DNA of 64,000 nt from Oxalobacteraceae bacterium. GTDB lineage: Bacteria > Pseudomonadota > Gammaproteobacteria > Burkholderiales > Burkholderiaceae_D. The notes beneath the pieces were generated by a model. It made no database searches and was not told where the DNA came from. It saw nothing but the letters and a program-made list of their open reading frames with translations. The number at the start of each line of letters is the position of its first letter. The stretch's first letter is position 1. Below are positions 44,055-47,029 of this stretch, one piece after another. The DNA is taken from positions 1-64,000 of the forward strand of contig RGFZ01000004.1 of the NCBI GenBank assembly GCA_010024875.1, read 5' to 3'. The position numbers were made by a program, and so were the translations under genes.

Positions 44055-44089
44055 AAAAAAACAAAGCCCCCTGACGGGCAGGGGGCTGT
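44055..44089 (-). terminator. Rho-independent terminator downstream of psiF-like gene
   Basis: AAAAAAACAAAGCCCCCTGACGGGCAGGGGGCT: minus-strand hairpin followed by T-rich tract. Confidence 0.8.
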
Positions 44090-44107: not shown

Positions 44108-44401
44108 TTATTTGGCCTTCAGGCACTCGCTCATGAATTTCTTTCGCTCGTCGCCCTTCATGCCCGCGGCGTCCTTGTTACAGGTAACCATCTTGTTCTG
44201 CTGAGCGGTCTTCGGGGCTTCCGCAGGGGCCTCTGGCTTTTTGCTCAGGCAGTCCTTCATGAAAGCCTTGCGCTCATCACCCTTTTTGCCCGCGGCGTCC
44301 TTGTTACAGGTGGCCATCTTGTTCTGCTGCTCAGTCGCGGCAAATGCAGGGGGGATGGCAAACAGACCCAAGAGGGTCAGTGCAGCAATGATTGATTTCA
44401 T
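44108..44401 (-). CDS. PsiF-repeat secreted protein
   Basis: Signal peptide MKSIIAALTLLGLFAIPPAFA then two repeats QQNKMATCNKDAAGKKGDERKAFMKDCLSKK / QQNKMVTCNKDAAGMKGDERKKFMSECLKAK. Confidence 0.9.
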   Translation of the reverse strand: MKSIIAALTLLGLFAIPPAFAATEQQNKMATCNKDAAGKKGDERKAFMKDCLSKKPEAPAEAPKTAQQNKMVTCNKDAAGMKGDERKKFMSECLKAK

Positions 44402-44573
44402 GATGTCTCCAGGCAGGCCAGGAACGAAGTGAAAAGCGCGCGAGACCAGCCCGCCACCTTGGGGACACGCACGCTCTTGCCGAACACTTGAAAGGTTCTC
44501 ACCCAACTATAGATCCAGATCCTGACACAAAGCTTAAGCGTGCTTCTTGTTAATCGTCAGACCCTGTCTCATG

Positions 44574-45860
44574 TCAGTCGTTTAACAAGCGATGCATGAG
44601 CCAGGCGGCCACCCGAAGCGCGACCTTGTCTTCACCATATCGCCCAATCACCTGCAGACCCACCGGCATGCCCGTCGCTCCTCGACTAAAAGGCAGATGC
44701 ACACAAGGCAGCCCCAGCAGCGTCCACACACGCCCGAACACCGGGTCCCCGGTTTGCTCCAGCGTCGCCGGCGCCTCACCGCGCGCGCTGGGCGCCAGCA
44801 CCACTTCATGCTCGCCGAATGCTGCCGAGACCATGCCGCGCGCTGCATGGGCAAGCTGATTCGCAGCGCGATACTGCTCGAGCGATACCTGTAGCCCGGC
44901 GGCCAGCAACTCGCGCAAGCCGGGGCTGAGCGATTCCGAATGATGCATTCGCTCATGCGCCAGCGAGCGCGCCAGATCGAAGCTCATGATGTCCTTCTGG
45001 GCCTGCAATAAACCTGCAAATGCTGCCGGCAGCACTAGCTCACGCACCGGCACACCCGCCTTGGCCAGACTTCGCGCGGCCTGCTCCATCGCGTGCCGGG
45101 TATCGTGATCAGCATGCGGCCATTCATGCGTGTGACAAAGCGCCACCCGTGGTGTGGAAGAAACCTCCAGTTTCATCAGTCCAAGATCGCCCGTGGCGGC
45201 TGCGGCAAATAGCGCAACATCAGGCACCGAACGGGCAAGGAACCCGAGCGTATCGAGCGAATCGGACAATGCTTTCACGCCAGCGCGGTTGACGAGCCCA
45301 AAACTGGGCTTGTAACCCACGATCCCGCAGAACGCCGCGGGACGGATGACCGATGCCGCAGTCTGCGAAGCAAACGCGAGCGGCACCATGTGGTCTGCGA
45401 CCGCCGCCGCCGATCCGCTCGAGGAACCGCCGGGGGTGTGCGTCAGTCGGCGTGGGTTGCGTGTCTTGCCCGGCGTGAAGGTGGCGAACTCGGTCGTGAC
45501 TGTTTTGCCAAGCATGATGGCACCTTGCTCGCTGCACAGGGACACCACTGCGGCATCGGCCAGAGGACGATGGCCAGTATAGATGGCTGAACCATAGGTA
45601 GTCGGCATGTCGTGGGTATCAAACAAATCTTTCACACCGATCGGTAAACCGTGCAACAAGCCCTGAACAGGACCCTCGTCGAGCTGTTTGGCTCGCGACA
45701 GTGCTGCATCGGCAGCGACATAATTCCAGGCACCTACCTGCAGCTCTCGCGACTCGATACGGCTCAGACAGGCGCGCACGAGTTCGCAAGCGCTGATATC
45801 CCGTCGGACGAGCTGTCGCGAGAGCTCAGTTGCACTAAGCGTATTCAACAATTCGTTCAT
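44574..45860 (-). CDS. Amidase signature-family enzyme
   Basis: GLPIGVKDLFDT, HTPGGSSSGSAAAVADHM and QTAASVIRPAAFCGIVGYKPS: Ser-cisSer-Lys catalytic motifs; start ATG at 45860 overlaps the upstream stop. Confidence 0.92.
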   Translation of the reverse strand: MNELLNTLSATELSRQLVRRDISACELVRACLSRIESRELQVGAWNYVAADAALSRAKQLDEGPVQGLLHGLPIGVKDLFDTHDMPTTYGSAIYTGHRPLADAAVVSLCSEQGAIMLGKTVTTEFATFTPGKTRNPRRLTHTPGGSSSGSAAAVADHMVPLAFASQTAASVIRPAAFCGIVGYKPSFGLVNRAGVKALSDSLDTLGFLARSVPDVALFAAAATGDLGLMKLEVSSTPRVALCHTHEWPHADHDTRHAMEQAARSLAKAGVPVRELVLPAAFAGLLQAQKDIMSFDLARSLAHERMHHSESLSPGLRELLAAGLQVSLEQYRAANQLAHAARGMVSAAFGEHEVVLAPSARGEAPATLEQTGDPVFGRVWTLLGLPCVHLPFSRGATGMPVGLQVIGRYGEDKVALRVAAWLMHRLLND

Positions 45861-47029
45861 ACGTGCTCCTCTTGTAATAATGACCGCGCTTCCATGTTTC
45901 GCGCAGCAGCGGTATAGCCGCCTTCGTCGCCATCGACGAAATGCAGGTGTATTTCGGGGGAACGCACAACGCAGGTAAACAGCGCCGATCGGGCAAAATG
46001 CCATCCCCAGCGGACCCCATGCCGGCGGCGTGCCTCATCAAGCAGCTGTGCAATCGATTCTCGCTGAGCGTGGCTAACATCGATGACCATCCTCAGGCAA
46101 TCGTCCAGCTTGAGATAGTCATTGTTTTTGCACAGGCTGACGATGTAGCGCCCAGCGGCAGAATCCGGGTCGTGCCGGGTTCGCTTGACGATCACGGTGA
46201 GGAGTCCGGTAAGCGAGGCCACTCCGAGGTAATGCAGCCACTGCGCCAGCTTCCCCTGCTTTTTCATGCGTGACTCGTGCATCAAGAACTCCGGTGGCCA
46301 ACGATCGGGGAGATTGTCCGGCGTAATGGGCATCGACTCGGGTGCGATCTCCTGAATAGACGACAGCAACTCCCGGTAAAGCGGCAGATGATCACCGTCG
46401 GCGTGAACGATGAGAGAGAGTATGCCGTCGCGCCGCGCCGGAACCGCACACCACCGGCATTCGAGACCTTCCATGCTGGCAGACGCGTTGGCAGCAGCGC
46501 TAATCAAGTACCTGCCATCCAGCGACTTGACCATGGCAGTCGCCGCGTTCAACCCACCACCGGCGAACAGGGCGATGTGATTACCTTTGCTTAACTGGCG
46601 ACGCGCCACCATCACCGGGATTCCTCGCTCGACGATATCGGCAACCGGCACACACCCTACTCTCAGCTCCAGACCAAACTCGAGCAGTGATTTTCGGGCC
46701 AGCGCAGTGAGGGATGCGGTGATCGCCTCAAAACAACTCGGTGGTACGATCAGCGTCGCTCCATCGCCACCAAACACAAAAGGAAAATCAACGCGCGGAC
46801 AGGCATTCTGGGCGCACAGAATGCTTGCTGCCCCCAAAGTGTTCACTTCCTTGTAACGACCCGCAGCAACCGCAGCGGTCGAACCACGTACATCCGTGAT
46901 GAAAATAAACCAGTCGTCTGGCGCCGGACGGTAATGCGAAGAATCTGTCAAGCCTTCCAGCGAGACTATCGGTTCGAGCTGCGCATAGAACGCTTCCGAT
47001 GAGTTCGGTTGATAGGTTGTCTGCGGCAT
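45857..47029 (-). CDS. DUF3095-like protein with class III nucleotide cyclase-like motifs
   Basis: 390 aa; FIFITDVRGSTAAVAAGRYKEVNTLGAASI...FPFVFGGDGATLIVP. Confidence 0.7.
   Translation of the reverse strand: MPQTTYQPNSSEAFYAQLEPIVSLEGLTDSSHYRPAPDDWFIFITDVRGSTAAVAAGRYKEVNTLGAASILCAQNACPRVDFPFVFGGDGATLIVPPSCFEAITASLTALARKSLLEFGLELRVGCVPVADIVERGIPVMVARRQLSKGNHIALFAGGGLNAATAMVKSLDGRYLISAAANASASMEGLECRWCAVPARRDGILSLIVHADGDHLPLYRELLSSIQEIAPESMPITPDNLPDRWPPEFLMHESRMKKQGKLAQWLHYLGVASLTGLLTVIVKRTRHDPDSAAGRYIVSLCKNNDYLKLDDCLRMVIDVSHAQRESIAQLLDEARRRHGVRWGWHFARSALFTCVVRSPEIHLHFVDGDEGGYTAAARNMEARSLLQEEHV

Follow-up and report, generated by a model that had tools for sequence, protein, structure and literature searches.

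Genes at the locus

The window, that is, the whole stretch of 64,000 nucleotides that was analysed, carries on its minus strand a gene of the DUF3095 family followed by a gene for an amidase-signature enzyme. The DUF3095 open reading frame, as given by the list of reading frames and their translations, extends over positions 45857-47029 and encodes 390 amino acids. The amidase gene extends over 44574-45860 and encodes 428 amino acids when counted from the ATG at 45860, with a longer in-frame start also present upstream of it. By the coordinates of the two reading frames, the DUF3095 stop codon and the amidase ATG overlap in the tetranucleotide ATGA (45857-45860, minus strand); this overlap is not kept in the nearest relative (locus L040), where about 24 bp separate the stop of one gene from the start of the other. 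In hmmscan searches the DUF3095 protein matches PF11294 with 338.9 bits (cut-off 22.2, E = 5.2e-101) over profile positions 1-377 of 378, and the amidase matches PF01425 with 249.9 bits (E = 6.8e-74). Coordinates and Pfam matches agree with an earlier sequence-only reading, which had described a 390-aa reading frame joined by an ATGA overlap to an amidase-signature enzyme. The DUF3095 protein scores below most intact members and is 30-41% identical to those outside the genus; on these values it is an ordinary but divergent member of the family. The GC content of both genes is near that of the window, and the pair therefore bears no foreign mark.

The nearest solved structure to the amidase is malonamidase E2 (1obj, 3.9e-73), and the likeness to this enzyme (1obj, 1ock) extends over the full length (250 bits). 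The candidate triad residues K77, S146 and S170 are spaced 69/24, as in the K-S-S triad of malonamidase E2; the numbering of that triad, and hence the Ser-cisSer-Lys roles of the three residues, are presumed here from knowledge of the family. A gene for a small PsiF-repeat protein (44108-44506, minus strand; PF07769, 107 bits) is found 3' of the amidase, and after it an intrinsic-terminator-like site with a 9-pair stem and a T run (44065-44087, minus strand). Such sites are no more numerous in the region than in shuffled sequences, and this one may mark where the transcript of DUF3095 and the amidase ends.

Distribution of the family

DUF3095 was found in 54 of 399 Pseudomonadota genomes and 4 of 194 Cyanobacteria genomes; all 14 well-known control genomes lack it. 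In the genus of the window, two of the searched genomes carry it intact, and a third carries a stub. At least 572 members came from the scan of species genomes. To judge by their titles, the best 80 of these records include Pseudomonadota, Cyanobacteria, Chloroflexi, relatives of Bdellovibrio, Myxococcales, Bacteroidetes/Balneolaceae, Calditrichia, Ignavibacteriales, Verrucomicrobiales/Opitutales, Planctomycetota, Sumerlaeota, Elusimicrobia and Poseidonibacter. The distribution is patchy yet extends across about a dozen phyla, and large rhizobial plasmids also carry the gene. No paper naming DUF3095 or PF11294 was found in a literature search, no solved structure related by sequence was found, and searches with PADLOC and PHROGs gave no match.

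Predicted structure

The DUF3095 protein gave no match to Guanylate_cyc (PF00211) in hmmscan at E-values up to 1 and none to GGDEF (PF00990), its loop reading GGDGA and not GG[DE][DE]F. Profile-profile comparison with class III cyclases by hhalign, using shallow profiles (Neff ~4), yielded only P of about 0.02-0.05, in a wrong register, and comparison of the first with the second half of the protein, at the same depth, was not significant. Sequence homology to class III cyclases or to GGDEF domains, or of one half to the other, was dropped because of these non-significant hhalign results. By sequence, DUF3095 fails class III membership.

An AlphaFold2 model of the whole chain, built from a family alignment of 78 members, has a mean pLDDT of 94.5 and a pTM of 0.91. 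When this model was compared with the PDB by Foldseek, the soluble C1-C2 domains of adenylyl cyclases (7pdd, 6r4p, 9u3p) were the sole matches at E < 0.001, and the next matches among natural cyclases were cyanobacterial Cya2, mycobacterial Rv1900c and the cyclic-UMP synthase PycC (0.003-0.007). A search of a library of viral structures returned nothing significant. Half 1 of the model (residues 14-195; 46445-46990, minus strand) is a predicted cyclase-like domain, in which DSSP assigns a strand at residues 41-47, a helix at 59-76, a hairpin at 84-86/90-95, a helix at 97-118 and a strand at 122-128. It matches adenylyl cyclase C1-C2 with a Foldseek value of 1.4e-4 and single cyclase domains with 0.003-0.05, mostly at probabilities of 0.9-1.0. 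Single cyclase domains align with the model over about 127-159 columns at 3.6-5.4 Å, and the TM-score of half 1 against class III cyclase domains, taken on the target, reaches 0.48, with deviations of 3.6-4.5 Å. The C1-C2 matches span the whole DUF3095 chain, but with a TM-score of 0.40 and an rmsd of about 15 Å, so that they do not establish both halves in one C1-C2-like frame.

Half 2 (residues 196-390; 45860-46444, minus strand) was predicted with a pLDDT of 95.4 when modelled alone and gave no significant match in the fold search (best E 0.05), although class III cyclases account for 15 of its best 27 matches and designed ferredoxin folds for several others. As modelled, it is a ferredoxin-like domain into which helices are inserted (at about residues 249-301), and plausibly a second cyclase-like half. 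The structure prediction and fold comparison that had been proposed as a check thus recovered class III cyclase domains as matches of half 1, and the model supports a cyclase-like protein at the level of the fold. The resemblance to cyclases or GGDEF domains suggested from the letters of the sequence was borne out for the former, by the predicted fold of half 1 and the placement of its Asp residues (see below), and fell away for the GGDEF pattern.

Conserved residues and candidate active site

The set of sequences used for conservation was drawn by Pfam profile, because the scan for loci had used GGDGA and HFxDGxxGGY as bait; it comprised 51 sequences, of which 35 were kept after those more than 80% identical were dropped. 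Identical in all 35 are D46, S50, N63, N75, D89, R123, K168 and C191 on the side of half 1, and E252, Y295, D304, K307, G342, T352, C353, H363, D366, G370 and G371 on the side of half 2. Both of the Asp motifs picked out beforehand are present. The first, FITDVRGSTAAVAAGRYKEVNTLGA (residues 43-67; 46829-46903, minus strand), has the form D46-x-x-x-S-T, with D46 as a predicted metal ligand at the end of strand 1, followed by S50 and T51; the second, FVFGGDGATLIVP (residues 84-96; 46742-46780, minus strand), contains GGD89G, with D89 as a predicted metal ligand in the hairpin of strands 2 and 3. The motifs are not due to chance, since D46, S50, D89 and R123 are identical in 35/35 members that were gathered by profile and not by motif. 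An Asp at the end of strand 1 with one or more acidic residues in the strand 2-3 hairpin is common to nucleotide cyclases and palm polymerases, the cyclases having a single one in the hairpin (PMC2904730). In the DUF3095 model D46 ends the strand 41-47, and D89 is the single acidic residue between the strands 84-86 and 90-95. As modelled, the placement of these residues is that of the nucleotide cyclases and not that of GGDEF proteins.

R123, in the sequence LRVG of strand 4 (46661-46663, minus strand), is a candidate triphosphate-binding residue by analogy with class III cyclases, and we take it to correspond by position to their strand-4 Arg. In half 2, the hairpin motif D304-x-x-K307-x-D309-D310 (46100-46120, minus strand) also contains less strictly kept acidic residues (D309 in 31/35, D310 in 29/35). 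K307, which stands 7 residues before a Met, presumably corresponds by position to the base-selecting Lys of C2. The C-terminal motif of half 2 (45902-45976, minus strand) consists of T352 and C353, followed by H363-F-V-D366-G-x-x-G-G-Y. The occurrence of invariant residues in both halves predicts an active site that draws on both. In class III cyclases, the transition state is stabilised by an Asn/Arg pair that the partner domain contributes from its helix 4. This canonical pair was not found in DUF3095: no invariant Asn or Arg is among the tallied residues of the C-terminal helix of half 2, the register of which is uncertain, and residue 377, the best candidate position for the Arg, is variable among the 35 members. 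DUF3095 would be at best a cyclase-like enzyme with a changed catalytic set.

Proposed function and alternatives

From the model and by analogy with known cyclases, DUF3095 is proposed, with a probability of about one half, to be a free-standing pseudo-heterodimer in a single chain, which would hold Mg-NTP in a composite site and carry out a 3'-OH attack or nucleotidyl transfer independently of the amidase. Half 1 would provide the metal Asp pair (D46, D89) and the phosphate-binding R123, as does C1 of the animal adenylyl cyclases, and half 2 the rest of the site (D304, K307, D309, T352, C353, H363, D366), as does C2. Mg-NTP would be held between the halves by D46, D89 and R123, with half 2 closing over the base and the ribose; the remaining chemistry may come from D304/K307 and from T352-C353-H363-D366 of half 2. 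The attack by the 3'-OH, or a related nucleotidyl transfer, would yield a cyclic nucleotide, which is the leading guess, or a similar small product. An unstudied family of hundreds of species thereby gains a candidate activity, metal-dependent NTP chemistry, together with named residues.

The C1-C2 core of the animal transmembrane adenylyl cyclases (7pdd, 6r4p) resembles DUF3095 as its best fold match and in having two halves in one chain, and both the metal Asp pair of half 1 and the candidate C2-type Lys (K307) in the hairpin of half 2 have counterparts in it. DUF3095 differs in being bacterial, 390 aa long, free of membrane domains and without detectable sequence similarity; its half 2 contains inserted helices and an invariant motif of its own, and no Asn/Arg pair was recognised there. 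The bacterial class III cyclases (Cya2, Rv1900c and the Pycsar pyrimidine cyclases) align with half 1 at about 3.6-5 Å and share the Asp residues of strand 1 and the hairpin. They are dimers of a single domain, whereas DUF3095 is predicted to have one site in one chain; in EaPycC, for example, the dimer interface carries two symmetric sites (PMC11224242). GGDEF diguanylate cyclases have the palm fold and a GGD in the hairpin in common with DUF3095, and differ by the GGDGA loop and the missing PF00990 match. A more specific and rather doubtful version of the proposal is that DUF3095 proteins are overlooked pseudo-heterodimeric nucleotide cyclases of about a dozen phyla, in which one chain with a single active site and a non-canonical set of catalytic residues produces a nucleotide signal, either known or new. 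If a cyclic nucleotide is made, bacteria would possess a C1-C2-like cyclase built as one chain, which searches for cyclases by sequence would miss.

Somewhat doubtful, and the strongest of the other explanations, is a palm-fold enzyme of another reaction, such as oligonucleotide synthesis of the Cas10/Csm1 kind, ring opening of an NTP as by GTP cyclohydrolase III, or modification of some other phosphorylated metabolite. The motifs K-x-D-D, T-C and H-x-x-D-G-x-x-G-G-Y of half 2 are unlike those of class III C2, its hairpin carries an acidic dyad, and both Csm1 and GTP cyclohydrolase III are among the weak fold matches. However, these matches are weaker, with E-values of 0.0025 or worse, and their geometry is poor; the pattern of half 1 is the single Asp of cyclases and not GGDD or GGDEF, and no CRISPR genes were found among the DUF3095 neighbours examined. 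It is rather unlikely that DUF3095 is catalytically dead and has kept the fold and the metal site for ligand binding only, as a nucleotide sensor or scaffold. The lack of an identifiable transition-state Asn/Arg pair, a relation to known cyclases that is undetectable at the sequence level, and the lack of an obvious receptor or effector gene adjoining DUF3095 would fit such a protein. Against it, the predicted metal Asp residues and many polar residues are invariant in 35/35 members, beyond the usual need of binding, and neither a sensory nor an output domain was seen to be consistently fused to DUF3095.

Amidase and genomic neighbourhood

The amidase was searched by tblastn against 80 named DUF3095 loci and three plasmid loci, with flanks of up to 8 kb where contigs allowed; many flanks were limited by contig ends, and neighbouring genes were called by a simple script. 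Among the 80 related loci, it stands beside DUF3095 only in a congener (L040, genome G007); the flanks retrieved for the other 79, and the three plasmid loci, gave no match. The gene order in G007 is that of the window, and DUF3095 and the amidase are each about 66% identical between the two, which suggests that they were co-inherited. Full-length orthologues of the amidase, 65-76% identical to that of the window, are present in 12 genomes of the genus, including the window's own; DUF3095 is intact in 2 of these (the window and G007), present as a remnant in 1 and absent from 9. The remnant, in G006 (locus L125), consists of 46 C-terminal residues at 59% identity (2820-2957) with an intact amidase gene directly downstream (1501-2775), and is apparently a case of gene decay in progress. 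Genomes G002, G014 and G017 have 200-300 bp between the amidase and the next conserved gene; their lack of DUF3095 is therefore genuine and not due to a gap in the assembly. In a tree of the amidases, G007 groups with G014 (support 100/99) and the window with G003/G008/G011 (90/93), with the carrier of the remnant in a third place. Since intact and remnant carriers stand apart in this tree, repeated loss of DUF3095 is suggested, and the simplest reading is one ancestral DUF3095-amidase arrangement followed by several losses in which the amidase was kept.

The signalling or small-molecule-modifying pair put forward in the sequence-only reading is very improbable, despite overlapping reading frames on one strand and the shared order in G007, because the two genes adjoin each other in a single genus only, DUF3095 is missing from most congeners in which the amidase is kept, and the neighbours elsewhere are unrelated. 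The neighbourhood survey that had been suggested found no conservation of the adjacency beyond close relatives, and the amidase as a partner was dropped because of its neighbourhoods and the pattern of losses. Its position next to DUF3095 is probably accidental, a matter of history within this genus, and a misleading lead is thereby removed. The amidase orthologues of the genus mostly adjoin the same gene for a PLP enzyme resembling tryptophan synthase beta, as does the amidase of the window. This gene (PF00291; 42503-43960, minus strand) adjoins the amidase in about 10 congeners, a more stable pairing at this locus than that of the amidase with DUF3095. In several congeners, the gene flanking DUF3095 or the amidase encodes a conserved hydrophobic protein with an HELLH motif and no Pfam match (L040:7161-7967, minus strand).

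DUF3095 has no conserved operon partner among 20 upstream and 10 downstream co-directional neighbours, which belong almost all to different Pfam families. With almost no repeats, those elsewhere include glycosyltransferase 41, polyphosphate kinase, CorA, LysR, UbiD, ThiF, ParB, SelO, RF-1, 2HCT, YcaO, pseudouridine synthase and others. The adjacency of GuaA, here and in loci of the Pseudanabaena type, was set aside as probably coincidence. Open reading frames with a response-regulator domain were found within 1 kb of DUF3095 in 8 cases (four confirmed by Pfam), as many as in all remaining flanks, which gives a density about five-fold higher than farther out. In loci of Cyanobacteria and Chloroflexi (L066:9306-9665, L074:2562-3503, L095:6563-6997, L101:9283-9975), such genes immediately follow DUF3095, and their presence in several unrelated lineages is weakly consistent with a role in signalling. 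The rhizobial DUF3095 loci (L037, L038, L039, L082, L086, L107, L119) have a stable block of their own, with a nucleotide-sugar dehydrogenase near or tail-to-tail and one or two class III cyclases near.
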